Source: Plasmodium relictum (taxonomy: Eukaryota; Apicomplexa; Aconoidasida; Haemosporida; Plasmodiidae). Taken from it: a DNA stretch of 64,000 nucleotides. Below, in pieces: positions 1,386-46,808 of the stretch. The translations under genes and the position numbers were made by a program. Position 1 is the first letter of the stretch. Each line of letters opens with the position of its first letter. The notes below the pieces were generated by a model. That model was not told where the DNA came from. It ran no database searches and saw only the letters and a list, made by a program, of their open reading frames with translations. The stretch is taken from contig NC_041689.1 of assembly GCF_900005765.1 (NCBI RefSeq), positions 62,001 to 126,000 on the forward strand. Direction: 5' to 3'.

Positions 1386-2594
1386 ATTGCCACTATTTTA
1401 TGTATATTTAAAAAAAAAAAAAAAAACTTAAAAGATTGTAAAATTTTAAAATATGCTAACTGCTTAAGGTTTTACTTTACATTATTAAAAATAAATAGAT
1501 AAAATGTAACTATTTTATGTAGAATTGTCGTAAAATTTAGAAATTAATTCATAAATAAAAAAAAAAAAAATCAGTGTAATTTAAAAAAAAAAGAAACTCA
1601 ATAATTGTACTAAGGTTAATTATATTTTTTTTATATACATATTTATTCTATTTGAATTTCTATAAAAGAAATTTAAAATAAAATTAAAACATTTTAGTAT
1701 ACTAAATTTATTTCTTATAAAAATGGGAAAATTTTATCGTAATTTTGAAAAAATTTAAAAAAAATATATATTATTTTAAGCTAAATAATTTAATATTAGG
1801 AACTGAAAAGATTAAAAATTTTTAAAAAAATATATTATTGAAATTATAATTTATATTTTCAAAAACATTGCATTTTATAATAAATTATTGAAAATATAAT
1901 TTTAAAATAGTTTCTTGATTTTTATTTATTTTGAACTTAATATTTTCTTTTTTTCTTTTTTTATATTTATGAGTCATTTTTATTCCTTTATTCTTATTTA
2001 AAAAAGAGAAAAAGCATATTATAATTTTGATGTGCAGATAACCAATTTTTATATTAATTATCATAATAATTTTAAAATTCTTTTTTGAGAATATTTTAAT
2101 ATATTATTTTTATTTTTTTAATATTATGAAAGTTAATTTTAATAAAAAAAAAAAAGCATTTTTTTTGTTTTTTTAAAATGATTAAATATATTTTTCTTTT
2201 TTTTTTTGACAAATGTTTTAAGAAAAATTCATGTTATTTTGTTATGAGATCACAAAAAAAAAAAAAAATAAAAATAATATATTCTTTAAAAAAAAGGAAA
2301 GGACAAGAATAATAACAAAAAAAAATTAAGATAAAATATAACTTAAACAAAAAAAAGAGTAATAAACACAGAAAAATAATATGATATTAAAAAAATAAAA
2401 TAATATACTTAAGAAAAAGATATAAAAGAAGGGATAATAATAAGATGAAAAACATAAAAGACATTAATAAATAATACAATGTAATATTAAAAAAGTAGTC
2501 TAATAAAAATACTAAAAAAAAAATATGTTATTTATTGGATGATAAAATATTATTAAAAAAAAAAGATACATATATTTAAAAAAAAAAAAATATA
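1386..2594. other. intergenic between PYM and C2H2 gene
   Basis: About 1.2 kb of spacer between two minus-strand genes. It should contain the PYM promoter and 5' leader and the 3' end of the C2H2 gene. Long A and T runs dominate. No coding frame or RNA gene seen. Confidence 0.6.
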
Positions 2595-5500
2595 CTAATA
2601 ATAATAAATGTAACCATAATGATTTTCTCTTTTAAGATGTATATATAAATATTTTATCGAAGGAAAAGGTTTTTTACAACAATAAAAGACTTTATGTGTT
2701 TTTATTTGTATCAAATGATTTTCTAAACTTTCTATATTATCAAATTTTTCATTGCAGTAACCACATTTTTGCTTAGTTAACATAATTTTTAACCAAGTGT
2801 CTAATTTTTTCTTGTTATTTTCTTTTATTAAATGTTTCAATGTACAGAAATATCTTGGCAATGAATTCGTAGGATCATACTTAAAGTATTTTAAATATGA
2901 TATTTTTTTATATATTTCTCCTTCAATATTATTTATTTGGTTTTTTTTTTTAATTTCATTAATTTTGGTGGATTGAAATTTATCACTGCTATTTTTATTA
3001 TATAAGTTTTTAATATATTTTGGTTTGTAACTTCTTTTTAATTTATTAAATATCTTTGCTTTTGAAAATATTTCCATATCGTTTTTATTTAATAATTTTT
3101 TGTTACAACATGATACGGAGTTATTATAGTATCTTTTATTGTTTTTTCTATATAATTCACAAAAATTTCTATATTTCATATTTTTATGATGACCTTTTTT
3201 ATTTCTCTTGTTATCTAATTGTAAATGATTGAAATTATTAATAATATTATTAGAAAAATATGAATAATTTATCATATCTTCAGTAATATGATAATAATTG
3301 TAATGATTATTGTAATTCATTTGATATTTTTTCTTTTTTAAATATAGGTAATTATTTATGTTAAAATTATATTTATTATATGATCTATTGTTAAATGTGT
3401 TATAATAATTATTTTCTCTAGTAGTTTCACTACTATTATGATATATGTTTCTCAATATATTTTTTTTTTTCTCATTAAAAGTTATAGCATTGTTTTGATT
3501 TTCCATTTCATGCATGTGCCATTGTGAATTTTTTCTTATGAATTTTTCCTTATAATTCATTTTATATTTGTTTAAGTGATTACTTCGAAAGTATGCATTA
3601 AACGCATTGATTTTATTTGTATGAGAGTTCTGATAATTAATAATCTTATTACCATTTATTTTTTTAGCATCATTTATGATATTCCAACTGTTATGATTGA
3701 AATTATCTCTATTAGTATAATTTATATTATTATTGAAAGTATAACTTAGAATGTCTCCACTAATGTCATGAATATTATTGCCATTATTAATATTAGTATT
3801 AGTATAATTAATATTATTATCGTTATTATTAGTAGTGGTGCCAATGCTAGTATTATTATTATGAGGAGCATTGATGTTAGTATTAATATTATTATTATCA
3901 TTATAGTTATCAATAAAATTCATATCATAACTATTGTTATAATCAAAGTTAAAACTCTCATCATAGTTCTTATGATAATCATTGCAAGAATTCATAACGT
4001 AATTATTATTCTGCTTCCTATGATATATATTGTAATAAATAATGTTAGTGCATTCGTTTAATTTTTCCTTTATCGGTATATCGTTACGATTTACATCTAT
4101 ATGGTGTATCATCTCATTTTTTAAAATATTACCATTAAAAGTATAAATATTAAAAGAATTAGATTGATATGAATTTTTGTAAATGAAATTATTAGAATTA
4201 TCAATATATTTTTTATTCCTAATATTCCTATAATTGGGAACATAATTATTTATATTGTTAAAAGTATTAAACTTGTTATTATTAAGAATATCTAAATTAT
4301 TAATATTATTTCTATTATCATAATAATTACTATGAAAAACATTATAATGATTCTTCCTTTTATTTTTATTATATATTTCAAAGGCATTTTTACTGTTTTT
4401 ATAATATATTTTTATTCTTTTTAATTTATTAATTTCTTTATTATCTTTAAGTTTATGTTTTAAACAGTCATTTTGATAAGAATATACTAATTGTTCATAA
4501 TCCTCTTGAATCTTCCCTGGATATTTTAACTGATTTTTTTCGAATTGTTTCTGTTGTTCCTTCTTTTGTTCTTCATTATCTCTTTTATCTATTTCTTTTT
4601 TTTTTCCTTCATATTCTTGCTCTTTTTCTTTTTCTTCTTCATTTTTATTTTTATTTTCATATTCATTTTCTTTTTCACTTTCATTTTCACTTTTATTTCC
4701 ATTTTCATTTTCGTTTTCTTTTTCTTTCTTTTCCCTTTTTTCTTTCTTTTTATTTTCATTGCCATAATCTTTCTTTTTTTCTTTATTTGAAGTAGTTTTG
4801 TTATTAATATCAATATCATTATTTTTGCCATTTTTTTCTATTTCATTTCGTATTCTTTCAGTCATCAAATACTTATCATAATTATCCTCTTTCTCCTTTA
4901 AGTATGTTTTTTTTTTAATACATTCAAAACTTTTATTTTTATTCTTTTTACTTTCCTTTTGGTCATAAGTATGATGTTTTAATCTGCCTTCTTTTTCTTC
5001 TTCTAAAGAAAATAAGATTTTTTCATTTTTTGCTTTTTTTGATTCATAATCAATTTTTTTTTTATTGTGTTTTATAATATTTTTCTCTTCTTTTATTTCA
5101 TAAAAGCTTGCTTCTTTTAAAAAACGTGATATTTCTATTTCATTTCTTGTACATATAATTTTATCAATGGTATGAGTATCCTGATTTGAATCATTGCCTG
5201 AATTATTCATTTCTTTTGTATTAGAAGTAACTTTTTCTTCTAATTCTATTTTAATGGGAATTTCTACTTTATTTTTGTTTTCATCGTATAAATAAGTGTA
5301 ATCATTTTTTAATTCTGTATCATTTTTATGAGTAATAATATTATTTCTTATTTTTGTTTTTGTTTCAGAAAAGTTCTTGTATAAATTATTACCGTTACTA
5401 CTTAAAATATCTTTATATTTTACACTTTTTAAAAAAGACCTGCCATTTTTATTAAAAAGTTCTATTTTCTCTTTTACACTCAAATTATAGTTACATAATA

Positions 5501-5801
5501 TTGTCTTATTTAGCATATCATTATTGGAATTGTAATTTGTATTAGAAAATAAATCAGATATTTCTTCTTTCTTTAAATTGCTTCTACACATTTTATAATA
5601 AACACCATTTAATAATTGTATTTCTATTGTTGCAAGCCCTTTTAAACCAATAATATTTATTTTTACATTATCTTTAGAAAAAACGTAACAATTTTTTTTT
5701 TCTATTTTTTCTAACCAATTATACTTTTTAGCGTTTTGTCTAATTTCATTTAAGTAAACACTACTTTCTTCCTTTTGAATTCCATTTATTACATTAGTCA
5801 T
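2595..5801 (-). CDS. Conserved Plasmodium protein with C-terminal C2H2-type zinc fingers, 1068 aa
   Basis: Single-exon gene. The only recognisable domain is at the very C-terminus, residues about 1013-1062. The first finger is C-x2-C-x12-H-x6-H (starts CGYCNEKF). A second, irregular finger has adjacent cysteines (YCCKKPFPS) and a final H-x5-H. Spacings of this type occur in U1-like or RNA-binding C2H2 fingers, so nucleic-acid binding is likely but the target is unknown. Residues 1-80 look more ordered. Residues about 270-420 are a Lys/Glu/Asn charged tract encoded by a hexamer-like run, and about 430-830 is an Asn/Tyr-rich low-complexity region typical of Plasmodium. The ATG at 5801 is genuine. 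Its 5' end faces LSM7 across a roughly 1-kb shared promoter region. I do not recognise a specific orthologue outside Plasmodium. Confidence 0.8.
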   Translation of the reverse strand: MTNVINGIQKEESSVYLNEIRQNAKKYNWLEKIEKKNCYVFSKDNVKINIIGLKGLATIEIQLLNGVYYKMCRSNLKKEEISDLFSNTNYNSNNDMLNKTILCNYNLSVKEKIELFNKNGRSFLKSVKYKDILSSNGNNLYKNFSETKTKIRNNIITHKNDTELKNDYTYLYDENKNKVEIPIKIELEEKVTSNTKEMNNSGNDSNQDTHTIDKIICTRNEIEISRFLKEASFYEIKEEKNIIKHNKKKIDYESKKAKNEKILFSLEEEKEGRLKHHTYDQKESKKNKNKSFECIKKKTYLKEKEDNYDKYLMTERIRNEIEKNGKNNDIDINNKTTSNKEKKKDYGNENKKKEKREKKEKENENENGNKSENESEKENEYENKNKNEEEKEKEQEYEGKKKEIDKRDNEEQKKEQQKQFEKNQLKYPGKIQEDYEQLVYSYQNDCLKHKLKDNKEINKLKRIKIYYKNSKNAFEIYNKNKRKNHYNVFHSNYYDNRNNINNLDILNNNKFNTFNNINNYVPNYRNIRNKKYIDNSNNFIYKNSYQSNSFNIYTFNGNILKNEMIHHIDVNRNDIPIKEKLNECTNIIYYNIYHRKQNNNYVMNSCNDYHKNYDESFNFDYNNSYDMNFIDNYNDNNNINTNINAPHNNNTSIGTTTNNNDNNINYTNTNINNGNNIHDISGDILSYTFNNNINYTNRDNFNHNSWNIINDAKKINGNKIINYQNSHTNKINAFNAYFRSNHLNKYKMNYKEKFIRKNSQWHMHEMENQNNAITFNEKKKNILRNIYHNSSETTRENNYYNTFNNRSYNKYNFNINNYLYLKKKKYQMNYNNHYNYYHITEDMINYSYFSNNIINNFNHLQLDNKRNKKGHHKNMKYRNFCELYRKNNKRYYNNSVSCCNKKLLNKNDMEIFSKAKIFNKLKRSYKPKYIKNLYNKNSSDKFQSTKINEIKKKNQINNIEGEIYKKISYLKYFKYDPTNSLPRYFCTLKHLIKENNKKKLDTWLKIMLTKQKCGYCNEKFDNIESLENHLIQIKTHKVFYCCKKPFPSIKYLYIHLKRENHYGYIYYY

Positions 5802-6839
5802 GTTTCTATATATTAATATATATCAAGTAAAAAAAAAAAAGAAAACATAAAAAAGAAAAATTAATTATATAAAAAAAAAATTTTTAATAATCAAATACAT
5901 ATTAATATATATATGAAGCAAATTTTCGTTATTTAAACACAGGAGAAAAGTTAACATATTCTATCATGATTTTCATAACTATGGAAACCTAAATATAATA
6001 CACAAATTAATTTTGTTAAAAAAATTCACTATAAAAAAGTCTAAAATTATTTAGAAAATTTAATTAGAACTTATAATCTTAACAAAAAAAAAAAAATAAA
6101 TAAATAAAATAAAATTTACAATAAATTTTAGAAAAAAATTAGAAATACATTTAATTATTTCTTTTTCTTTTCTTTTAGTATCTGTTGTTTATGGACAAGA
6201 AATTTGAGTTTATTAGATTAATACTAATTTTAATAAAAATCAATAATAAATTTATATGTATAATATGTATGTTAGTTAAACCTTTTTATTATAATAACGC
6301 ATTTATATCATAGAAAAAAAAATTAATTATTAATAAAAATATAAAAATTTATAATCAAATTTAAGACATTAATTAGAAAGAAAAATAATAATTACAACTT
6401 TCACAATGATGTGCTAAAATGAAAAAAAAAAAAAAAAAATCACTTAGATTATCATGCGTAATATATAAAAAAAAAAAAACATGCAAATAACTTGATTTTA
6501 TATAAAGAGTATATAAATAACTTTGATCAATTTACAAAATTACGTTTTATTAAAGTTAAATAATTCTAATAATTTTACGTTTAAAAAGTAAAAATATAAA
6601 ATAAAAAAATGTAATAGAATTTAAATTTCCTTTTTTTTATATATATGCTTATTTCATAGAATGCACAAAAAAAAAAAAAAAAATAAGAAATATATAAAGG
6701 CCCATATTTTTATTAAATTACATTTTCCTCTTTTTTATTTTAAATAAAAGAATTTATTTTTAATAAAAAAAAAAAAAAAAAATACGAAAAAAAGAAAAAC
6801 TTTAAAATATTTTTATTTAATTAAAATTTTTTGAAGAAA
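5802..6839. other. divergent intergenic, probable bidirectional promoter
   Basis: About 1 kb between the C2H2 gene (-) and LSM7 (+), both transcribed outward, so both promoters should lie here. The sequence is AT-rich with several homopolymer A runs. I could not pick out specific transcription-factor sites. Confidence 0.5.
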
Positions 6840-7512
6840 ATGTCAGTTTTACCTACTGTTTCAACACAAAAAGATAATAAATTTATGATGGACATAAAGA
6901 AATTCCTTAATCAGAAAATTCGAGTAAAGTTTGATGGAGGAAGGGAAGGTAATTATATTAAAAAGAGACAATTAAATTAATTATATATATATAAATACAT
7001 TAAATTATTAAACGATAAGAAGGAAGAAAATAACATTATAAATATGTTTAATAATGAATTTGACATTCTTTTTTTAACATTTTTAGATATATTTATATTC
7101 AATAATATATATAATTTGAATGCTTTATTGTATCTTTTTTCTAATTTTAGTCGTTGGTAATTTAATTGGTCATGATGCCATTTTCAACTTAGTTTTAGAT
7201 AAAACTGAAGAATATATTAGAGGTATAAGTATAAAATAAAAAAAACTAAAATTCATATTTTTAATAATTTTTAACTTTAATTATTAACAGATCCAAACGA
7301 TCATTTTGTTTTAACTGAGAAAACAAGAAGCATTGGTTTAATTGTCGCTAGAGGCACATCAGTACTTTTTTTTTTTTTTTCTAATTCATTTTTAATGTTC
7401 AGACATTTATTAATAGTTATGTATATGAAATTTTTTTTCATAGGTTGCTTTAATTACACCAGTTGAAGGAACACAAGAAATATCAAATCCTTTCATTACT
7501 ACACCAAAATAA
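6840..7512 (+). CDS. LSM7: U6 snRNA-associated Sm-like protein LSm7, four exons
   Basis: LSm7 is a subunit of the heteroheptameric LSm rings: LSm2-8 binds the U6 snRNA tail, LSm1-7 acts in mRNA decay. Exons are 6840..6948, 7151..7222, 7291..7361 and 7444..7512. All introns are GT-AG and short (202, 68 and 82 bp). The joined protein is 106 residues, the usual size for the family. The Sm1 motif is visible (IRVKFDGGRE then GNLIGHDAIFNLVLD) followed by EEYIRDPNDHFVLTEKTRSI. The Sm2 motif is GLIVARGTSVALITP. The phrase RVK(F)xGGRE together with LVLD and the TR..GL.V.RGTSV stretch is specific to LSm7. The gene lies between two zinc-finger genes and is convergent with the krox1-like gene. High confidence in product and in every splice site, because the family alignment is continuous across each junction. 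Confidence 0.95.
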
Positions 7513-34460: not shown

Positions 34461-37400
34461 ATGAAAAATGTAAATAAGCAATCTAGTGGTATTTCACAAA
34501 ATTTAACAAAAATATTAAGTAATATTGAAAATATTTTAAAAAAAAATGCGGAGAATATATTTTATGTAAAAAATATTATCTGTTATTTTTATTTCAGTTA
34601 TTACATAACGCATTCCCCCATTGATGATGATTCTTTAAGAGCATTAGAAAGAAATAAGAGAAAAACGTTTTTATCATTAAATGAAAGATTAAAATTAATA
34701 AGTGAAACAATCCTGTATATATTAAAAAATGACATATTCTCTTATAACAAAATAATTTTAAATAAAGAATTCATTATTTTAGAAAATTACCAAAATGAAA
34801 ATTTCATAATAGAAAATTATTTAAATAGTGTAAGGAGAGGGAAAAAGGAAATTTTTCTAGATTTTTTAAAAATAAAAATAAAAAATGAAGAATTGCTTCC
34901 TTTTATGGTATTACTATGCTGTAGTGATTATAATAATATAGAAAATATGTGTATTTTTATGGTTATAACATTATATATAATTTATACATTTTTAGAAAAA
35001 TATAATGTAAAAACTAAATTATTAATAGAAGAAATGAATATTTTTGAATTAGATAAATTATATTTATATATATCTGATAGATATAAAATGGACGGTTATT
35101 TTATGTGTACAAATAAAGTAATTAATATTGTTATAAGTTTTTATATAAACTTATTAAATATTGGTAAAAATGAATTATTAAATATAATTAATGGGAAAGT
35201 AGTTTTTAGAAACATAAATAAGAATAAAACGAAATATAAAAATTCTATTATTTTAAGCAGTTTTATAGAAGCAAATATTGATAAAAATATCATGTATGAA
35301 AAATTAAGATTTTTATTTATAGCAATATGTGATGGATTATTACTAATTTTGGAAAATTTAGTATGTGTTAATTATTTAACTTTTGTTATTTTAGATGTTT
35401 TTATACTTGTATCTAAATATTATCCATGGTTTATAATAAAAAATATAGAAAAATTTATTAGTTTATTTTGTAAATTTGTTTTAAATTCACAATTATTCTT
35501 TTTTTTCATAAACAAATTACATGGAATTTTTAACAACGAAAAATTATTGACTTTTGAAGTCTATTCCAAAGCAGTTAATTGTGTTTTAGAAAAATTAGAC
35601 AGAAATTATGATAATGTTCAAGAATTATTTCTTTTATTATTTTTTTATATTATTTGTATAAAACTTTTTTTGATTCAACTTTTAAAGAATGATATACATA
35701 ATGTAGAATTTTTATTTTTATCTCTGAATTATTTGAATAATTATTTATGCCATCTAATTAGAATATGGAATTTTAATTTTCCTATTTTTCTTTCATTTAA
35801 AAAATTAATTAATGAATATATTAATATATATGTATTGTTGATAAATAACCTTTTAATTTTTGATACATCACTATTTTCTGAAAAACAAATAATAGAAGGA
35901 AATACTTTGTTACAATATTTCATTAATGAAAATATAAAATGCTCATTAATTTACAGCAAACATATAAGAAATCACGAAATGAATGCATACATGTTAAACT
36001 TATTAGAAAGAGCAATTGATAAAAATGTGCATCTAGAAAAAATAAATGATTATGATATAGAAAAGGAAGAAAAGGAAAAAACAAAGGATATATATAACAG
36101 TATTCCTAATAAAGAAAAATCGAATAATGAAAAAGAATGTATAAAAGAAAATAGGAAACAAATAGTAGATTATAAAGATTTAAATAGATTTAAAAATGAA
36201 GATAATGCTGATTATTTAAAAATTTGTAAAGCTCTATTAAAGGATTTTTCTGAAATTCTCATTTCATGTATTTATAAAATGAAGGATAAAAAAAAATTAA
36301 TTGAAATTGTTATAAGTAATTTTAAGAAAATAAATAGTACAAATAAAAATTTCTTAAAGTTTTATTTTATTAATATTATACTACCTTTTAAAAAATTTTT
36401 TAACGATAATTACATAAAAAATAGATTATTTTACATATATACCTATATAGTAAGAAAATTAAAAGTACAGGAAATAAAAGCATATATCTTCAGTGAAATT
36501 ATATTCATAAATTATTATATTTCTAATGTATTAAAAACCTTAAAGTATTCTCCATTTTTGTTCTATTATTTAGAATATAATAAAAATAAGATCGATGCCA
36601 CTTTCTTTAATAATTCCTTATTTAAAGAAGATTATAACATATATTTTTATAAGTTTTATAAGAACAATTTAGATTATTTTTTTTTAATTGTAAATTCTTG
36701 TAAAAAAGAGCATCCTATATTACCAATAATAATATATAACATTTATATTTTTTATGAAATAACGAAAAACATTTCTGATTATTTTCAGTATGATAAGACA
36801 TATTTAAATAACCTATTGTATTATTATAATTGCAATAATTTAATGAAATTTTATTTATTGTTTTTAAATATATTGAGAAAAATTTACAAGGAAAAAAACT
36901 GCTTTTTAAAAATGGAGGATAATATAAAAAATGATGAAATAGTTTTTTATTTCTTAAGTATGTTTTTTAACTTAAATGATTTCAATAATTTTTTCATAAA
37001 CTTCTTTGTTGATTTATATTTATTTTATAAATCATGTAAAAATCTATTTTTTCTCTATATTTTTTTTCAAAACTTTGATAGAAGTTTATACTTTTCATTT
37101 TTAAAAGAATTTTTTAAATTTCCTTTTTTCTTATTACACAAAGAAAAATTTTTAGGAGGACAAACAAAAATTAACAAAGATACATATATTCATTGTAATT
37201 TTATATCAGAAATTCAAAATAACTCAGGATATGTTGTAAAAAATAAGGATTTCAATAATTTTCAAGTGTATCAGAAACAAAATATAAATAAAAAAGAATC
37301 GAAATATACAAGTAGTGAGCATAGGAAAGAAAATGAGAATACTGTAAATTACAATTACATTAATGAAACCGATGTCAAAATAAATAAAAGTGATAATAAA

Positions 37401-40400
37401 AATTATAATAGCATTGATAAAAATAATAATACTAATAACGATTCCTATAGCAGTATTATGGGTACAGATAAAATTAATATGGAAAAAAAAAATAAAAACA
37501 AGAAGGATATTAATATGAATATACAAAATTTAAGAAGTTATTTTTTAATTAATATAATTAATAATATTTTTGATGAATTAAAGTGTTTTATATTACAGGA
37601 TAATTTTTACGAAGTAATTAAAGATAATAACGAAAAAATATATATAGAAAACAATTATAAGAAAAATAAAATTCATTTGTTTATTTTAACATTACTAAAA
37701 ACAGATATATTAAATAAAGATTTTAAAAGTATAGAAAAATATAATTTAAATGTTAATGACTTTTTTGTTTATTTTATATTAGAAAAGAACTCGTATATTT
37801 TTAATTGTTTGCTTTCCAAATCATCTATTCATGCGCATAAAGTAACAAAATTTTATAAAAATTGTCTTTCTTATTTTAAAATTAACATAGAAGATATTTT
37901 AAATAAAAAATTTTCAGAAACCTACACATCCCTAGAAAACAGAAATAAAAAGAAAAACAATTTTTTTAATGAACTAAAATATTTCATTAAAGAATTTGAC
38001 AGTTTAAATTTATTTAAAAATTATAAAAAGTTAAAGCGATCACTAAATAATATATATAAGAATGAAACAAATTATGAAGAAAGTGACTGTATTTCATATA
38101 ATGATGAAACAAAGCTGAAATGGATAATTGATTGTATTATAAAACAAAAAGAAACAAAAAAAGAAGAAAAAAATATAAAAAATAAAGATTTAGTTAATTA
38201 TGATGTTTATAACATTAATTTATTATTTGTTGGATATTGTTTAATCTTAAATTGCTTAAAATATAAATCAAAAAATAAAAAAGAATCATTTCTTATGTTG
38301 GCAAATATGTTTGACATGTTTTTGAGTAAATTAAAAAATTATAATTATTTAAAAAAATATAAATGCTTACTAAAGAATGCCCAACATATGATTGATTTAA
38401 TATATATAATGGATGCATATCAGTTAAAGATTACTAATAAATTAATAACTATTATTCATGATGGAAATGGTTTTTCCAACAATTCAAATATCAGTTTGTT
38501 TTTACATAATAAATTAGAAGCATATAAAAAAAATTATTTAGATAAATATTTTTCTATTAATCTTTATACTTTTTATTTAAATCACATAAATATTTACAGC
38601 TGCTGGAAAAAATTAACAATTTTTAAAAACATTATATCTAATGATAATTTTTTATATTTTAATACATCATATATTTTTTCAATATTTGATCAAATACTCA
38701 ATGATTTAATAGAAAACTTAACAAATCAAATATCCCAGAGAGAAGTAAACTTAAACATAACTGTCAATTACAAATATACAAAAGAATATAATGATGATTT
38801 TTATAAAATAATAGATAATTTTATACATATAATGTATATCAATAATATTTTAACTTTTATATCTATTTATTCAAAGGAATCCTTCTATATTTATTCCTTG
38901 TTCGATTTTTACAATAAAATGAAATTTTTTTTGAGCCAGATATTTCAAGAAAACTATAAAAATTATGATTATAATAAAAGAAGGAATATATTCATGCGTT
39001 ATTTTAATAAGACAAATAAAAGTGATAAAAATAAAAATTATAGCAATGTTAATACTAAAGATAATAACATTAATAATAATTTCCTAAATAAAAGTGATGA
39101 TAACAAATATATTAAAAATTATGACAGGGATAACATTCACTATTCTAATAAAAGTGATAATGATATAAATGAAGATATTTGCCACACTTTAATTTCTCAT
39201 TTTCCTTTTTGCTTATTAGATATAAATAAAATAATAAATTTATATATTGATTTTATAAATAACAATTTTATTAATATAGTATATTATTTTGAAAATAATA
39301 AAAAAGTATTAACTTTAATTTCTAGCTGTCTATGTTTTATAAATAAAGAAGATAATAATAAAAATAACAAAGATGATATATCGAAATATTATGGTAATTT
39401 AATACTGTGTAATACGTATTTTTTTAAAAGTGTAATTTATATATATATGCAGAGTTGCATATATTCAAGTAACCCATTGCACATTTATAATTTTTTAAAA
39501 AATTTGACTAGTATAAACAAAAATATATTAAGTACGCATATAAAAAAATATTTATTAAGTATGTATTTTTTAAAAAATAAGGATTTTTATTTTTGTAGGA
39601 TGTTTATTGAAAACACTTTGTATGATTTGGAAGAAAAAAATAATGAAAAAAATTTTATTTATGATTTAAATTCATATGATGATTTAATAAATTTATATTT
39701 TATGAATATTTCATTTTGTGATAATAAATGGAAATTAAGAAATTTATGTGAAAATTTAAATCAAAATATATATTTGTATTCAAATCATGTAGATAAAAAA
39801 AATGACTTTTTAAATCTCATTATAAATTATTATGATCATAATTTATCTATAATTTATAATTCAAAATATGATAAAGAAAATTCCTTTTATAATTATGATG
39901 ACATTAAAAGAAGAGAACAATCCTCAGACAGTTATGAGAAATATCATAAAAATAATGACATTGGTAGTGATTACGATATTAACTATAGTGTTAATACAAA
40001 TATATATAATTTAAAATTAAAAAGAAATTATATTTATAATGATATCTTAAAAAAAGATGCTCTATTTATTATTAAGAATATTAGAAAAAATAAATTAATT
40101 TATGAGAATGATGAAAAACTAGAAAAAGCTAAATTTCTATTTTATAACTTTAATAAATATTTAAAGGAAAACTCTTTTTATTGTTATGATTTTTATATCA
40201 GAAAAAAATTATTCTCTGGTTATATTAATAATAATAGTAAAATAAATAAATTAATAAAAAAGAGTAAATTCAATCACACAAATAATGTAAATATATTTAA
40301 CACAAATGATTTGAAAGAAAATTTTGCTAATCATAGTATATATAAATATTGCTCTTATAGAAATAGAAAAGACATTTTAATTTTTTTTTTGATAAATAAA

Positions 40401-43400
40401 ATATTAAATTATTGTAATAAAAAAAATAGTTTTTTTTCTATTTATTTATTATTAAAAAATAATTACAAATATAAAAATTATATAGAAAATAATAATATAT
40501 TTTTTTCAATTATTAGTAATAAATACGCAGATAAATTATCAGTAAAAGATAGATTAAAAAATTATGAAGAACTAAATAAATTGTTATTTCGTCATATTTA
40601 TGTAAAAGAAAGATCTTTTTTAAACAAACCTATTTTAAAATATGAAAATGAATATATACTAGGTAATGAAGTAGATATTGATTATTCTAAAATGAATGAA
40701 AATTATTTAAATTTTATTTACTTTTCACTAAATAAAGGAAACTATTGTAAAAATAGCAATATTAATGAACATACTGAATATATAAATAATATAGAAAATG
40801 AAAAGTATAGTAATACATTTTTATCTAATAATTATGAAGATAATTTTTTTAAACATTTATATTATGAGTATACGAACGAAGAATATTTAATAATCAATGA
40901 AATTAAAAAAAAAAAAACAAATATTCATTATTCTTATTGGAATAATAGATACAAAAATAATTTATTTTTATTAAAATTATATTATGAATTATATGTAGCT
41001 AAAAAAAAAGGAGAATCACATAAGAAGTGCAATGGATATATAGACATCTATTATGTAGTAGAATTAAAAAAAATTAGAAAGTTAATTATAAAATTTAGTA
41101 ATTCCAAACAAAAATTTTATGATTGGAATTACATAAAATCGTATTTATATGATAAAAAAAAGGATAATAGTTCATATACTGATATAATTTTAAATCATTT
41201 ATTATTTTTACAATATACTAAAACATTATTTTTATATAATTCAATTAATTCTATGACAAATTCTTTTGATTATTCATTTAATTATAATGTAAATCAAAAA
41301 AATAATGATAATTCCATCTATATAAAAAATAATTTTAAATTAAAAAATAAATTATTGTTTTTCTTTAAAAACTTGTTTATTTTTTATAATGAAAAAGAAA
41401 TTCTAAAAAAAATGTTATTAAGAAATATTAAAACAAGAAAAGGTGAAATGTTATTTGAAGAAGTCAATAAACTGAAGTTAAAAAATAAAAGTATACCAAA
41501 AATTTGTGAAGAAAAAGAAGTAACATGCATAGACCATGGATATAACAATAATCTTACTTGCGATTATAATTTGATAGATAAAAATAATCAAAATGATGAA
41601 AAAAATGAGATAAAAACAAATGAAACACAAGATAATTTTATAAATAATTCTCCAGCAGATTTTGATATATGTATTTACGACTTTATTATAAAAATTCCTA
41701 TATATATGTATGCGTTAATTTATAGAAACATATTAAATTACCTTTTTGAAAAAAATGAAGATTTAAATTTAAAGAGAATTATCTTTTTTTTGTTTCTTCA
41801 TTTATACAAAAAAATACCTGAAATCATTACTGTTCATATAACTGCTTTTTATAAAATGTTTATATATGATCAATATGTAAAAAATTTTAATAAAAATTTT
41901 TTTTCTTTACTTTGTTACAAACAGAATAATCTTAATAAAAGTAAGAATTACCAAAAAGGGAATAATATGCATAATGATGAATTTTATTTAACGAATAGTT
42001 TATATGAAAAAAAAATTGCTCTTCATAGTTATGATTCAAAAAATGAAATAAAAACTGAGCAAGAGAGAATAATAAATGAGTGTGAAAATACGAAAGAACA
42101 TACAGCAAATTTCATTCTTTACAGTGACAATGAAAAAGAAGAAAATAAATTTCATGAAATTTATACTGATTCATATGCAGAAGAAAATGAAAAAGTGAAT
42201 AACTTATTATGTGATGATTTTATTATACGTAACAATATCACAATTGTTCAATTTTTTAATAAGATAAAAGATTCAAATTTTTTATTTTATTTAGATTTTA
42301 ACAATAGTTTAACAAGCTTATTAAATTCATTTGAATTAATTTTTTCTAGGATTTTTCAAATATTATTGTCTTATGTGAAGCATTTAACGAATATTTATTT
42401 AAAAAATGTTCGATTCTCTTATTGCTTGAATTTTGAAGAAACAAAGGATTCTGTTAAATCAAGACTTAGAGAAAAAGATTTATCAGAAAATGAGGAAACT
42501 GTAAAATATGAATTAGAAAATTTTTGGAAAAGCAAATTTTTATTCCTTTTAATTTTCCTTAACGAGTTAGTTCTTTATTTGAATAATGAATGTGAAAACA
42601 ATAGTACATATCTTAAATATTTTTTTTCTCATATGCATTTAATGTCTGAGTTTTCAAATATTAGTAACCTAGATTTTTACATAAAAAATTTGATTGAAGA
42701 AGAATTAAGAAAAATATATATACTGTTCATAGATTTCTATTGTTATTTATATATTAATAAAAAAATTAAACTAACTAAAGATATAGAAGTTAATATAAAA
42801 AAACATATTTTTATAACGCAAAATGGAGATATGCCTGGATTTAATATAAAATATTTTGAAGCATTAAAAGAATTTTTATATAATTTTAATAATTTTTTGT
42901 ATAAAATTATTGAAAATAATAAAATTGTTGACTTAAAAAATTGTTTCTTTAGTGATTTTATAGAATACAAATCTTCCTCAAAAAACTCGGAGTTTATTAA
43001 TTTACATTTAGAAGAAAAAATATCATATGACATGATATCATATAATAAAATAGTTAATTTTAGAAACGAGGTATATACAATTAAAATAAATAATCCTATG
43101 AAAATTATAACAATTATTTTTCAAAATGGCAATATAAATTCATATATAACTAAAAGTGGGGAGGACTTGAGGATAAATAAATATATATCCGATATTTTTG
43201 ATTTTACATTTCATTTAATAAATAAAAAAAAATTTAATAAGAATTCTCTATATGATAAATTATTATATAATAATATTTTTCGTGTAAATAAAAATTTCGA
43301 AAATACCATTTTAGAAAATGAGGAAATATTTTTTGATTTTAGCAAATATATTCCCGCACAATCGTCTGACATAATATATTTATCTAATGCAATAGGTTTA

Positions 43401-46400
43401 ATAAAAAAGAATAAGAATTTAATATCTATTTTATCTTTAATTAATGATGAAAATAAGAAAAAATTTAATGAAATTTATAATGAAAAATTAACTGAGAAGA
43501 TAAAAAAGTATGAGGAAAAAAAATTGGTTGAGAGATATAGCAATATTTGTAGTAAAGAAAAAATAGAGTTTGAAAATAAAAAAAATGAAATAGAAAAAAA
43601 TAATAAATATGTAGAGATGAAAAATAATAATGTAAATAATATAAATAATATTACCAAAAAAGAAAAAGAAAGAATATTAAGAGAAGTCTATGATGAATTA
43701 AAAGTATATTATGAGAAAGAAACATATAGTATTAAATTATATATACATATGTTAAGTAACGATAATAAAGAATATTTTAATAATAGAAAAAAATATACAT
43801 CATCTTTAATTTTTAATAGTTGTATAAATTTCATCGCAAAGATTGGTGACAGGCATTTAAATAATATCCTATATGATTATATTAATCATGAAATTTTAAA
43901 TATTGATTTAAATTTAACTTTTCAAAAGGGATTATATTTGGCCAATCCTGAAGTAGTACCTATAAGAATAACTGACATTTTCTGGAAAGCATCCCTATTT
44001 AATTTCTCTAATTCTACTTTTATTTATAATTTAAATAAAATATCATCTATTATTTATCAATATAAAAGTTATTATTTAAATAATTTTTTTCAATTTTTTT
44101 TTTATCCTTTTTATAATCATAAAAATAGAAATTTCTTTCATATATTACAGTTTAATCATTTATTAAAAAGTAATTGTTGTATTAATAATTATATAGAAAA
44201 AAAGCGCTCAGTACAAAGCATTAATGATTTATTATTTTTTATTAATTCTATGATCAAGTGTTTTAATAATATATATATGAATCATAGTTTCATAATTAAT
44301 AACATAAATAAGTTTAAGAAAATTATACCTTCTTATTTTCATTCTATATATTATAATAATAATAATCTAAAAAGAAAAATTGTTAATTTAATAAATAATA
44401 GTAGATTATATTACTATCATTTTAGAAAAATTGTAAATTCTTCCAATGACTATATAAAACAGATATTTTATAAGATTTCCCAATTAATAAATAATTACAA
44501 ATTTGTTGAAAAGAAAAGAAAAGAGGGAGTTAAAAAAGAAAAAGTTGATGAAGAAAATGAAGAAACAAAGATAGAAATAAAAAATACCTTAATAAGTAGA
44601 ATAAATGAAAATAGACAATTAAATGATTATCCATATGCATTTATTAAGACAAATGGCAATAATGAATTTTTTTATGATAAAGATTTAAGTGGCAATAACA
44701 AGAATGTTTTAGAATTCGATTTTAAATATAATATAAAATATCTTTTAAAAAAAATACCTCTATATTATTTAAGTAAATTACTTAAAATATTTCAATTAAA
44801 AGAAATAAATAAATTATATTTATTAAAAATTGAAAAGTACATAAAGAGATTATTTGTAATTTATAACCAAAATTATTTAACAAATAAAATAATTAAAAAG
44901 AAATTTCACACCGTAAAAGATTGTATAAAAGAATGTTTAAGAATTAATAATAAAAATATAAATAATGAATCATTAATAGAAATAAATAACATTTTATATG
45001 ATAATTTTTTAATAATAGAAAATATTATAAGTAAAAATACGAAGACTCATTTCATTTATATATATTTCATTTCTTTTATGTTTTATGCTTTTTCTATTAA
45101 TTTAAAAAAAATTATGAAAACATATATATCACATAAAAATAATTCTATAAAGTATTTCTTGCAAGAAACCTTTTTTTTTCCTCAAGTGAAAAGAAATTAT
45201 TTAAGAAAAATAATAATTAAAACTAGTAAATATTTATACATTTTAAAAAATAACAATATCTTATACTATTTATCAAATGAAGATAATAAAACTAAAGGTG
45301 ATAATAAATATTTACCTAAAGAAACAACAAAATATTCAAAAAATGATAACAGTCATGATATTAATTTCCTATACACGAAAGAATATGAAAAAATAAAAAA
45401 TTATTTAATTGCTATTAATGAACATATAAGTAATATAAGTAAGATTTATAATGTGATTAAAAAAAAATATGCAAATTTATTAAATTTAATTATAATTTAT
45501 TCTACATTATTTATATTTTTGTACTTGAAGAATACTGACTTGAAAATTGAAGAAAAGGAAAAGATATTTTATACCTATTATAGCAACTTTAAATTAAAAT
45601 ATGATTTTTTTTATACATATATATATAATTCTCCTTTAGAAGATAACACATATATTTATTATATTTCTTTTAAAATTTTATATATAATGAAATATATACA
45701 ATATTTTTTACAAAATAATTATTACAAATATTATTTAAATTTACTATTATGCATAGAAGAAAATAATAAAACAAAAAAGAAGATATATACTAATAATAAT
45801 AATGTGCATAGTCAAAATATAAAATTAGGAATTAAGCAAAAAAGATACAATACATTATATAAGTTGAAAAGAGCAAAAATGAAGAAAAAATCAAAAAAAA
45901 GGAAAAGAAGTTTTATATTCATTCATAAAATTAATATAAAAAGCAATATAAGACATTATGCTAGCTCTCATTACAAGAATAGAAACCTCTTAAATTATTT
46001 TAATTTTTTAATTTATTTATTAAGTAAAAATAATTTTAAGAAAAATATAATGAAACAAATAAACAATTTTTATAAATATTTGATCATTTTTCACAATATA
46101 AAAATGAGTAATAAAAAGAAAATTAATATTGTATATGCATACAAAAAAATAACTGGATTATACCGATTTTATGATTTAAATGTACATTATAAGAAAAATA
46201 TAATTGATATATATAAAGACAAAAATTTATATTTTTATAAACCTTTTTATGATTCAAAAATGTTTTTATATGATAAAAATGACTTAGATTATTCGGAAAA
46301 TTCTGATGATAGTGTTACTTATAATGAAAAAGATAATCAATTAACATTTCAAAAAAGTTTATACCAGAGTAATCATAAAATGAAAAAAATAAAAGAATTT

Positions 46401-46808
46401 AAAAAGGGAAATAGAAAGAATTACTTCATTCAAAAAACAAAAATGAATATAATATCATTTGAAAAATTCCAAAATATTAAAAAATTACATAAAGAAATAG
46501 AAAAGGAGAAGTTACATTTTAATGAGTTAAATATGCTTTATTATATGACACATTTTGAAAATAACAATGATGTTCATTTTTTTAATCAGAAAACTTATTA
46601 CAATGAAAAAGATTGTGATATTTTGTTATCCTCTAAAAGTTTAATATCCTCTATTTATTATACACAACATGATTTTATGAAAAAAAGAAGGAAAACTGAT
46701 AATTTAGATTTTTTAAGAAAAAGTAATTTATTTCAAAAAGTTTTTTATGTTTCAAAGTCACCAAATTATTTATCTAAAATATATGAAGGATGGGCACCAT
46801 GGTTGTAA
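34461..46808 (+). CDS. SMG1-like: Giant PIK-related protein kinase, SMG1-like, 4115 aa, single exon
   Basis: PIK-related kinases are giant helical-repeat Ser/Thr kinases (ATM, ATR, DNA-PKcs, mTOR, SMG1). Residues 1-2850 are Leu/Ile/Phe/Tyr-rich helical sequence with Asn/Lys inserts and no readable repeat consensus. The kinase domain is near 2860-3230: SYITKSGEDLRINKYI supplies the ATP lysine (Lys2898), IAKIGDRHLNNIL the catalytic loop (Asp3130, His3132), and NIDLNLTFQKG the metal-binding Asp3149. Next comes NPEVVPIRIT, matching the family's .PE.VPFR.T activation segment. The last 33 residues are a FATC tail ending IYEGWAPWL. SMG1 rather than ATM is suggested by D-x-N where others have D-x-G (SMG1: IDYN), by F-x-K-G, by a YEGW FATC, and by about 850 residues between kinase and FATC, as only SMG1 has a very large insert there. 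SMG1 phosphorylates UPF1 in nonsense-mediated decay. PIKK identity firm, subfamily inferred. Confidence 0.8.
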   Translation: MKNVNKQSSGISQNLTKILSNIENILKKNAENIFYVKNIICYFYFSYYITHSPIDDDSLRALERNKRKTFLSLNERLKLISETILYILKNDIFSYNKIILNKEFIILENYQNENFIIENYLNSVRRGKKEIFLDFLKIKIKNEELLPFMVLLCCSDYNNIENMCIFMVITLYIIYTFLEKYNVKTKLLIEEMNIFELDKLYLYISDRYKMDGYFMCTNKVINIVISFYINLLNIGKNELLNIINGKVVFRNINKNKTKYKNSIILSSFIEANIDKNIMYEKLRFLFIAICDGLLLILENLVCVNYLTFVILDVFILVSKYYPWFIIKNIEKFISLFCKFVLNSQLFFFFINKLHGIFNNEKLLTFEVYSKAVNCVLEKLDRNYDNVQELFLLLFFYIICIKLFLIQLLKNDIHNVEFLFLSLNYLNNYLCHLIRIWNFNFPIFLSFKKLINEYINIYVLLINNLLIFDTSLFSEKQIIEGNTLLQYFINENIKCSLIYSKHIRNHEMNAYMLNLLERAIDKNVHLEKINDYDIEKEEKEKTKDIYNSIPNKEKSNNEKECIKENRKQIVDYKDLNRFKNEDNADYLKICKALLKDFSEILISCIYKMKDKKKLIEIVISNFKKINSTNKNFLKFYFINIILPFKKFFNDNYIKNRLFYIYTYIVRKLKVQEIKAYIFSEIIFINYYISNVLKTLKYSPFLFYYLEYNKNKIDATFFNNSLFKEDYNIYFYKFYKNNLDYFFLIVNSCKKEHPILPIIIYNIYIFYEITKNISDYFQYDKTYLNNLLYYYNCNNLMKFYLLFLNILRKIYKEKNCFLKMEDNIKNDEIVFYFLSMFFNLNDFNNFFINFFVDLYLFYKSCKNLFFLYIFFQNFDRSLYFSFLKEFFKFPFFLLHKEKFLGGQTKINKDTYIHCNFISEIQNNSGYVVKNKDFNNFQVYQKQNINKKESKYTSSEHRKENENTVNYNYINETDVKINKSDNKNYNSIDKNNNTNNDSYSSIMGTDKINMEKKNKNKKDINMNIQNLRSYFLINIINNIFDELKCFILQDNFYEVIKDNNEKIYIENNYKKNKIHLFILTLLKTDILNKDFKSIEKYNLNVNDFFVYFILEKNSYIFNCLLSKSSIHAHKVTKFYKNCLSYFKINIEDILNKKFSETYTSLENRNKKKNNFFNELKYFIKEFDSLNLFKNYKKLKRSLNNIYKNETNYEESDCISYNDETKLKWIIDCIIKQKETKKEEKNIKNKDLVNYDVYNINLLFVGYCLILNCLKYKSKNKKESFLMLANMFDMFLSKLKNYNYLKKYKCLLKNAQHMIDLIYIMDAYQLKITNKLITIIHDGNGFSNNSNISLFLHNKLEAYKKNYLDKYFSINLYTFYLNHINIYSCWKKLTIFKNIISNDNFLYFNTSYIFSIFDQILNDLIENLTNQISQREVNLNITVNYKYTKEYNDDFYKIIDNFIHIMYINNILTFISIYSKESFYIYSLFDFYNKMKFFLSQIFQENYKNYDYNKRRNIFMRYFNKTNKSDKNKNYSNVNTKDNNINNNFLNKSDDNKYIKNYDRDNIHYSNKSDNDINEDICHTLISHFPFCLLDINKIINLYIDFINNNFINIVYYFENNKKVLTLISSCLCFINKEDNNKNNKDDISKYYGNLILCNTYFFKSVIYIYMQSCIYSSNPLHIYNFLKNLTSINKNILSTHIKKYLLSMYFLKNKDFYFCRMFIENTLYDLEEKNNEKNFIYDLNSYDDLINLYFMNISFCDNKWKLRNLCENLNQNIYLYSNHVDKKNDFLNLIINYYDHNLSIIYNSKYDKENSFYNYDDIKRREQSSDSYEKYHKNNDIGSDYDINYSVNTNIYNLKLKRNYIYNDILKKDALFIIKNIRKNKLIYENDEKLEKAKFLFYNFNKYLKENSFYCYDFYIRKKLFSGYINNNSKINKLIKKSKFNHTNNVNIFNTNDLKENFANHSIYKYCSYRNRKDILIFFLINKILNYCNKKNSFFSIYLLLKNNYKYKNYIENNNIFFSIISNKYADKLSVKDRLKNYEELNKLLFRHIYVKERSFLNKPILKYENEYILGNEVDIDYSKMNENYLNFIYFSLNKGNYCKNSNINEHTEYINNIENEKYSNTFLSNNYEDNFFKHLYYEYTNEEYLIINEIKKKKTNIHYSYWNNRYKNNLFLLKLYYELYVAKKKGESHKKCNGYIDIYYVVELKKIRKLIIKFSNSKQKFYDWNYIKSYLYDKKKDNSSYTDIILNHLLFLQYTKTLFLYNSINSMTNSFDYSFNYNVNQKNNDNSIYIKNNFKLKNKLLFFFKNLFIFYNEKEILKKMLLRNIKTRKGEMLFEEVNKLKLKNKSIPKICEEKEVTCIDHGYNNNLTCDYNLIDKNNQNDEKNEIKTNETQDNFINNSPADFDICIYDFIIKIPIYMYALIYRNILNYLFEKNEDLNLKRIIFFLFLHLYKKIPEIITVHITAFYKMFIYDQYVKNFNKNFFSLLCYKQNNLNKSKNYQKGNNMHNDEFYLTNSLYEKKIALHSYDSKNEIKTEQERIINECENTKEHTANFILYSDNEKEENKFHEIYTDSYAEENEKVNNLLCDDFIIRNNITIVQFFNKIKDSNFLFYLDFNNSLTSLLNSFELIFSRIFQILLSYVKHLTNIYLKNVRFSYCLNFEETKDSVKSRLREKDLSENEETVKYELENFWKSKFLFLLIFLNELVLYLNNECENNSTYLKYFFSHMHLMSEFSNISNLDFYIKNLIEEELRKIYILFIDFYCYLYINKKIKLTKDIEVNIKKHIFITQNGDMPGFNIKYFEALKEFLYNFNNFLYKIIENNKIVDLKNCFFSDFIEYKSSSKNSEFINLHLEEKISYDMISYNKIVNFRNEVYTIKINNPMKIITIIFQNGNINSYITKSGEDLRINKYISDIFDFTFHLINKKKFNKNSLYDKLLYNNIFRVNKNFENTILENEEIFFDFSKYIPAQSSDIIYLSNAIGLIKKNKNLISILSLINDENKKKFNEIYNEKLTEKIKKYEEKKLVERYSNICSKEKIEFENKKNEIEKNNKYVEMKNNNVNNINNITKKEKERILREVYDELKVYYEKETYSIKLYIHMLSNDNKEYFNNRKKYTSSLIFNSCINFIAKIGDRHLNNILYDYINHEILNIDLNLTFQKGLYLANPEVVPIRITDIFWKASLFNFSNSTFIYNLNKISSIIYQYKSYYLNNFFQFFFYPFYNHKNRNFFHILQFNHLLKSNCCINNYIEKKRSVQSINDLLFFINSMIKCFNNIYMNHSFIINNINKFKKIIPSYFHSIYYNNNNLKRKIVNLINNSRLYYYHFRKIVNSSNDYIKQIFYKISQLINNYKFVEKKRKEGVKKEKVDEENEETKIEIKNTLISRINENRQLNDYPYAFIKTNGNNEFFYDKDLSGNNKNVLEFDFKYNIKYLLKKIPLYYLSKLLKIFQLKEINKLYLLKIEKYIKRLFVIYNQNYLTNKIIKKKFHTVKDCIKECLRINNKNINNESLIEINNILYDNFLIIENIISKNTKTHFIYIYFISFMFYAFSINLKKIMKTYISHKNNSIKYFLQETFFFPQVKRNYLRKIIIKTSKYLYILKNNNILYYLSNEDNKTKGDNKYLPKETTKYSKNDNSHDINFLYTKEYEKIKNYLIAINEHISNISKIYNVIKKKYANLLNLIIIYSTLFIFLYLKNTDLKIEEKEKIFYTYYSNFKLKYDFFYTYIYNSPLEDNTYIYYISFKILYIMKYIQYFLQNNYYKYYLNLLLCIEENNKTKKKIYTNNNNVHSQNIKLGIKQKRYNTLYKLKRAKMKKKSKKRKRSFIFIHKINIKSNIRHYASSHYKNRNLLNYFNFLIYLLSKNNFKKNIMKQINNFYKYLIIFHNIKMSNKKKINIVYAYKKITGLYRFYDLNVHYKKNIIDIYKDKNLYFYKPFYDSKMFLYDKNDLDYSENSDDSVTYNEKDNQLTFQKSLYQSNHKMKKIKEFKKGNRKNYFIQKTKMNIISFEKFQNIKKLHKEIEKEKLHFNELNMLYYMTHFENNNDVHFFNQKTYYNEKDCDILLSSKSLISSIYYTQHDFMKKRRKTDNLDFLRKSNLFQKVFYVSKSPNYLSKIYEGWAPWL

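Follow-up and report, generated by a model that had tools for sequence, protein, structure and literature searches.

The 64,000-nucleotide stretch of DNA analysed here (the window, G000:C11:62001-126000) carries on its forward strand a single-exon gene of 4115 codons, whose product is, almost beyond doubt, a real and very divergent phosphatidylinositol 3-kinase-related kinase (PIKK) of a bird malaria parasite. A first-pass annotation of the window, made from the letters alone, had described it as an SMG1-like PIKK encoded in one exon; the frame indeed runs uninterrupted from an ATG to its stop codon, and since a stop occurs with a probability of 0.10 per codon at the 17% GC of the window, an open frame of this length did not arise by chance. 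The closest protein, PGAL8A_00312000 (P0002) of Plasmodium gallinaceum, is 77% identical over the full length and 81% identical in the kinase part used as query, and POVCU2_0040800 (P0003) of P. ovale curtisi, with 3781 residues, is 43% identical over its length, so that the reading frame has been maintained. Because the closest protein comes from P. gallinaceum, the host is a bird parasite, almost certainly Plasmodium relictum; genome searches covered its 22.6-Mb assembly of 514 contigs. Within Plasmodium, our protein searches returned P. gallinaceum and P. ovale only, and as matches in these searches require shared five-letter words (within length windows of ~2263-7201, 2079-6617 and 1163-3701 residues), this does not prove that P. 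falciparum or P. vivax lack the gene.

The assignment to the PIKKs follows from several lines of evidence. When the kinase region was searched against the PDB (phmmer, E<=1), all 26 matches were PIKKs (SMG1, Tel1, ATR, mTOR or TOR2), and a profile built from the three Plasmodium sequences (E<=10) matched PIKKs in 39 of 43 cases, the remaining four being unrelated proteins with E of 0.13-6.1; lipid kinases were returned by neither search. The catalytic family PF00454 scored 39.6 bits (cut-off 27.1) on the kinase stretch scanned alone, and was not reported in the whole-protein Pfam scan, in which FATC alone appears, at 14.7 bits. All motifs named in the first-pass annotation are present (YITKSGEDLR at residues 2895-2904, GDRHLNN at 3129-3135, IDLN at 3148-3151, NPEVVPIRIT ending at Thr3171, and YEGWAPWL at 4108-4115), and the kinase carries the PIKK-type core of PF00454 with GDRHxxN, D-x-N/G and VP.R.T. 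The C-terminal FATC that had been annotated stands as to its place, at the extreme C-terminus, and its key residues, which are retained; with at most 19.7 bits in Pfam scans and 21.3 bits in the genome search it stays below the cut-off of 25.3, and we therefore speak of a FATC-like end. UniRef labels the orthologues as PI3K/PI4K catalytic domain, which would fit a lipid kinase (phosphatidylinositol 3- or 4-kinase, PI3K or PI4K) that had acquired a FATC-like tail by chance, and a PI3K sister position is not rejected by the full-kinase tree described below, with 6 of 133 PI3K-only residues common to all three Plasmodium proteins. The lack of lipid kinases among the PDB matches, the FATC-like C-terminus and the VP.R.T segment, which is PIKK-like and without counterpart in the PI3K and PI4K rows of the parasite itself, make this extremely improbable.

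Table 1. Coordinates of the divergent PIKK gene and its parts (positions in the window), and of the end of a separate Tra1/TRRAP-like frame
Feature	Position	Strand	Basis
Whole gene, single exon, 4115-residue divergent PIKK	34461..46808	+	Open reading frame and PDB matches
Pre-kinase region, residues 1-2859	34461..43037	+	No Pfam family in residues 1-2800
Kinase domain, residues 2860-3218	43038..44114	+	PF00454 and profile matches
Lys2898, beta-3 ATP lysine (P. ovale: Thr)	43152..43154	+	Alignment
Catalytic loop GDRHLNN, residues 3129-3135 (P. ovale: GNRYLCN)	43845..43865	+	Alignment
Metal-binding motif IDLN, residues 3148-3151 (P. ovale: ITLN)	43902..43913	+	Alignment
End of activation segment, PEVVPIRIT, residues 3163-3171 (VP.R.T PIKK-like, not lipid-kinase-like)	43947..43973	+	Alignment
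Insert between kinase and FATC, residues ~3230-4083	44148..46709	+	Conserved in three Plasmodium species
FATC, residues 4084-4115, terminal YEGWAPWL	46710..46805	+	Below Pfam cut-off
C-end of Tra1/TRRAP-like frame	L005:511-3600, G000:C14 ~57.2-60.3 kb	-	Tra1/TRRAP match

Aligned with the human PIKKs, both bird proteins retain Lys2898, Glu2901, Asp3130, His3132, Asn3135 and Asp3149, and their catalytic segment (residues 3121-3180), 90% identical between the two species, is among the better conserved parts of the protein. Two positions of the bird proteins depart from the usual pattern: the hinge aromatic, W or F in all eight PIKK reference rows and in that of the parasite PI3K, is replaced by Lys2983 in each of the three Plasmodium proteins, and Asn2906 stands for the aspartate of R-x-D in both bird species, whereas P. 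ovale has Asp there. The P. ovale orthologue carries Thr, Gln, Asn, Tyr and Thr in place of Lys2898, Glu2901, Asp3130, His3132 and Asp3149, respectively, and, having lost these catalytic residues, it is predicted to be a pseudokinase that is retained as a long protein, like Tra1/TRRAP. The chief rival to the reading that we prefer below starts from here, namely a PIKK that is becoming a scaffold as Tra1/TRRAP did, its long helical body kept, with activity that would be weak in the bird proteins and lost from the P. ovale one. Both the upkeep of 3781 residues in P. ovale despite the changes at Lys2898, Asp3130, His3132 and Asp3149, and the hinge Lys and Asn2906 already found in the bird copies, agree with such a course, which we nonetheless hold to be somewhat unlikely given that the textbook catalytic residues are all intact in a well conserved segment of both bird proteins, and that the genome encodes a separate Tra1/TRRAP-like protein (an 8319-residue frame with degenerate catalytic motifs, ending in WFPWF; best E 1.3e-13). 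Such a drift of the protein toward a scaffold and pseudokinase can also hold together with a role in DNA damage.

Residues 1-2800 contained no Pfam family, including the TAN motif (PF11640), for which Pfam has low sensitivity at such divergence; neither the whole-protein scan nor the stretch scans gave a Pfam match to a FAT domain ahead of the kinase; and an NCBIfam scan gave nothing meaningful. AlphaFold models made from the three-sequence alignment were unusable in terms of confidence, being mostly helical with a mean predicted local distance difference test score (pLDDT) of 30.2 for residues 2060-3230, and reaching a mean of 29.4 for residues 3195-4115. The huge insert ahead of FATC that the first-pass annotation had pointed out is real, at ~850 residues, and conserved across the three Plasmodium species. 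Our literature search, which did not extend to supplementary tables, found neither this gene nor a Ku80 of bird malaria described in any paper. The neighbours at 8299-30409 of the window include an ABC transporter, porphobilinogen deaminase, an exon of a phosphodiesterase, and proteins with WD40 and C2H2 zinc-finger domains, a set reminiscent of the PF3D7_12093-12099 block of P. falciparum.

Judged by its sequence, the kinase is claimed by no known subfamily. Outside Plasmodium, the homologues found were five proteins, two named Tel1 and three unnamed, all carrying PF00454, PF11640 and PF02260 (two of the five were found again in another search). The best profile scores were 48.3 bits for yeast TEL1, 41.4 for TOR2, 41.3 for ATM, 40.8 for mTOR, 37.4 for SMG1, 34.3 for ATR, 32.7 for another Tel1 and 23.1 for DNA-PKcs, so that the spread inside one subfamily is as large as that between subfamilies; moreover, ATR and mTOR probes likewise give DNA-PKcs the lowest score among the PIKKs listed, and its 23-bit score therefore weighs little. 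A kinase phylogeny was computed with single human representatives of SMG1, ATR, DNA-PKcs, mTOR and ATM, with three rows of Tel1 type, of which two are named and one is not, and with the PI3K of the parasite, on 257 columns (full kinase) and on 136 columns (C-terminal lobe, C-lobe), the parasite PI4K being omitted from both trees and P. ovale from the C-lobe tree. Neither tree could place the Plasmodium clade, whose stem measures 3.4 changes per column in the 257-column tree and 6.5 in the 136-column one; long branches and an unusual letter composition drew warnings from the program. No robust grouping with SMG1, another PIKK or PI3K emerged. In approximately unbiased (AU) tests, sister placements received 0.32 for SMG1, 0.24 for DNA-PKcs, 0.24 for PI3K, 0.16 for ATM and 0.08 (0.076) for ATR with the full kinase, and 0.39 for SMG1, 0.31 for ATM, 0.29 for mTOR, 0.27 for DNA-PKcs and 0.26 for ATR with the C-lobe, while forcing SMG1 as sister cost 0.5 (full) or 0.07 (C-lobe) log units. 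The few reference sequences and the long branches limit any such placement.

The ATR/Mec1-type or TOR-type PIKKs gain something from these comparisons, as D-x-N and F-x-K-G occur in ATR also, and mTOR is the nominal sister in the full tree (support 36/48). That support is below a usable level and mTOR is not the sister in the C-lobe tree; with the full kinase, no sister placement had a lower AU value than ATR (0.26 for the C-lobe), and none of 82 ATR-only residues is common to the three species, compared with 6 of 153 for ATM/Tel1 (four rows pooled), 2 of 86 for mTOR, 1 of 96 for SMG1 and 1 of 112 for DNA-PKcs. Raptor had no genome match either, a result that is no proof of absence with 14 control genomes silent as well, and an ATR- or TOR-type identity is, in our view, quite improbable. 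The last 16 residues of the P. relictum FATC are most alike by score to DNA-PKcs (8/16 identical, BLOSUM62 score 60), followed by ATM (6/16, 46), SMG1 (6/16, 45), Tel1 (8/16, 43), ATR (6/16, 41), the parasite's own Tra1-like protein (5/16, 32) and mTOR (6/16, 30). DNA-PKcs gives the highest score in both bird species, and it also leads over 29 residues of the P. ovale FATC.

The first-pass annotation had based SMG1 on four features, three of which do not hold as markers. Asn after D-x and the F-x-K-G loop are both found in ATR too, and where the P. relictum FATC has YEGW, the orthologues have YQGW (P. gallinaceum) and SPSW (P. ovale); given the ATR rows and the orthologues, these three were dropped. 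The fourth, the insert, sits where the SMG1 insert does (~1000 residues, according to the accessible part of PMC5709506), and its sequence kinship to the latter is undetectable: a profile of insert and FATC gave no PIKK match in the PDB, with two matches at E ~3, both PU.1, in what is a weak test at this divergence, and hhalign against the C-terminal part of SMG1 aligned FATC alone, with a probability of 1.7% (reversed control 0.1%), being likewise weak at this divergence. An SMG1-like kinase would be the missing nonsense-mediated decay kinase of malaria parasites, acting on UPF1 and using the C-terminal insert to bind regulators. Besides the position of the insert, which speaks for it, SMG1 is the nominal top match of the single-sequence PDB search (2.4e-7 vs 2.7e-7 for Tel1) and has the AU values given above, and a search of the parasite UPF1 (L021:2180-6337, reverse strand, G000:C8) for Ser/Thr-Gln (S/T-Q) sites found an excess, with 12 sites in 1381 residues vs 5.4 expected in shuffles (p 0.004), of which 7 lie in the last 231 residues (2.2 expected, p 0.0013) and 1 in the N-terminal 190 residues (0.4 expected), the segment boundaries having been picked after the sites were seen. 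Ancient SMG1 loss has been tied to loss of S/T-Q at the ends of UPF1 in the portion of PMC5709506 at hand, and the excess therefore allows a PIKK acting on UPF1. The observation is only permissive, and S/T-Q is equally a target of ATM, ATR and DNA-PK. Further, SMG1-diagnostic residues are variable or common to ATR, just one SMG1-only residue is shared by all three species, and genome searches for PF10220 (Smg8_Smg9), PF15785 (the SMG1 N-terminal family) and EST1 gave no match, which with 14 control genomes also silent is no proof of absence. According to the available sections of PMC5709506, SMG1 is missing from every alveolate genome examined, a loss restated in those of PMC10449492. Altogether an SMG1-like UPF1 kinase is unlikely; SMG1 is one possibility without special support, and the name should not be used on present evidence. 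Should the protein nevertheless prove to be SMG1, it would indicate the kinase of UPF1, whose phosphorylation in P. falciparum is attributed to no known kinase in the accessible text of PMC10449492.

The context of DNA repair in the same genome suggests another direction. A genome search with PF02735 (Ku) found two genes on contig C4, both above the cut-off of 25: one near 440 kb (L020 4676-6538, reverse strand) with 46.3 bits, and one at ~134.7-137.5 kb (L019:3692-6460, forward strand), a 923-residue frame with 33.6 bits on the stretch scanned alone. TELO2, which is a chaperone of PIKKs, was found as well (29.6 bits, genome search). As far as the part of Boehme et al. 2018 available to us goes (PMC5880244), Ku70 (PRELSG_0411800) is reported in both bird parasites and Ku80 as not present; from position and number, the gene at 440 kb is probably that Ku70, and the gene at 136 kb probably a Ku80 candidate. 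We tentatively favor, as possible though short of probable, a DNA-damage PIKK of the DNA-PKcs/ATM type, degenerate in part, which bird malaria parasites have kept. Such an identity is suggested by the PIKK-only PDB matches, the intact catalytic residues of the bird proteins, the Tel1-type homologues outside Plasmodium, the top profile score of yeast TEL1, the DNA-PKcs-like FATC, the two Ku genes and TELO2, and a role with the Ku proteins would be at least as likely as that of SMG1.

Several observations weigh against a DNA-PKcs/ATM identity. The kinase profile scores DNA-PKcs lowest of all matched PIKKs (23 bits) and gives the second Tel1 only 33; the trees neither support nor reject DNA-PKcs (AU 0.24, 0.27) or ATM (0.16, 0.31); and over 16 residues the P. 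ovale FATC scores 42 with its own Tra1-like protein, 36 with ATM and 35 with DNA-PKcs. The ATP pocket is altered, and kinase activity of the bird copies is, from their predicted residues, uncertain because the hinge aromatic is Lys and the R-x-D aspartate is Asn2906. On the side of the partners, the second Ku protein (L019) had no match in the whole-protein Pfam scan, neither Ku protein had a match in the PDB, which bears on the Ku80 identity of L019 in particular, and single-sequence hhalign comparisons of the Ku proteins with human Ku were uninformative (0.1-0.6%, reversed control 0.1-0.4%). TELO2 would also be explained by the Tra1-like protein. A second ATP-dependent DNA ligase was not found, the genome search giving a single match (G000:C14:91388-92002), and ligase IV thus seems absent although Ku is present; XRCC4 had no genome match, which is no proof of absence as 14 control genomes were silent too. 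In the accessible part of PMC6635534, Ku70, Ku80 and Lig4 are reported as lost in Plasmodium. Finally, the one complete H2A tail covered here (L033, G000:C11:1176186-1176449; the tail of the H2A.Z-like gene is not included) ends in TANQEY: it retains Q-E-Y and has no Ser/Thr before the Gln, hence no gamma-H2A.X site.

Under the preferred DNA-PKcs/ATM reading, we infer the function and the link to Ku as follows. The kinase would be a PIKK for DNA ends or DNA damage that came down from the apicomplexan ancestor, would work with Ku70 and the Ku80-like protein at broken or chromosome ends, and might phosphorylate S/T-Q sites or serve partly as a scaffold. For Toxoplasma gondii, the available portion of PMC7325978 describes DNA-PK (266010), Ku70 and Ku80 as present and XRCC4 as absent, and the common ancestor therefore probably had DNA-PK and Ku; an ATM of Toxoplasma is given as TGME49_248530 in PMC4853372. 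It is conceivable, if doubtful, that bird parasites have kept a stripped DNA-PK apparatus (Ku70, Ku80 and the PIKK) without ligase IV, which would act at chromosome ends or breaks and not in classical end joining, and which decayed in mammalian parasites, leaving a dead copy in P. ovale and being elsewhere lost or unrecognizable. If true, this would be the relic of a pathway whose absence counts as a hallmark of Plasmodium. A bird PIKK with its catalytic residues, a dead P. ovale orthologue and two Ku genes would make the loss of the DNA-damage kinases directly testable within one genus.

Compared with the known PIKKs, the protein shares with ATM/Tel1 the best kinase profile match (yeast TEL1, 48 bits), Tel1-type outside homologues and GDRHLNN, which is also found in yeast Tel1. 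It differs in that the second Tel1 scores 33 bits, no TAN or other N-terminal family was detected in it, IDLN replaces IDLG, the hinge carries Lys, the pre-FATC insert is large and the H2A tail covered lacks S/T-Q. With DNA-PKcs and Ku70/Ku80 it has in common a bird FATC that is most alike by score, GDRHLNN, which DNA-PKcs also has, and Ku-domain genes in the genome, whereas the DNA-PKcs kinase profile score is the weakest (23 bits), only one ATP ligase was found, and DNA-PKcs is without a large kinase-FATC insert. The likeness to SMG1 lies in the long kinase-FATC insert, D-x-N, F-x-K-G and, in P. relictum alone, YEGW; the insert kinship is undetectable, however, YEGW is variable in orthologues, two of the features are also those of ATR, and SMG8/9 gave no match (controls silent). 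Tra1/TRRAP is likewise a giant PIKK, and the P. ovale protein is likewise without catalytic residues, but the bird copies keep theirs and a separate Tra1-like gene lies on C14. Within the genus, the accessible text of the 2004 P. falciparum kinome (PMC526369) describes genes of PI3K/PI4K type that lack FAT/FATC and reports finding no DNA-dependent kinase, and that of a 2020 review (PMC7325978) says much the same, so that a PIKK with a FATC-like end stands in a genus that these sources mostly report without such kinases. Protein searches, with their five-letter-word matching, returned no P. vivax protein, and a literature search for PVP01_1309200 or PVP01_1309 returned the kinome paper only. 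That paper, in its available part (PMC8960227), describes P. vivax PVP01_1309200 as a divergent extra PIK, the family being one member smaller in P. falciparum, and of the five Plasmodium species in a 2017 survey, P. vivax is the only one reported to have ATM (PMC5709506, accessible part). PVP01_1309200 and the P. vivax ATM are thus candidate orthologues, and either could be this gene.

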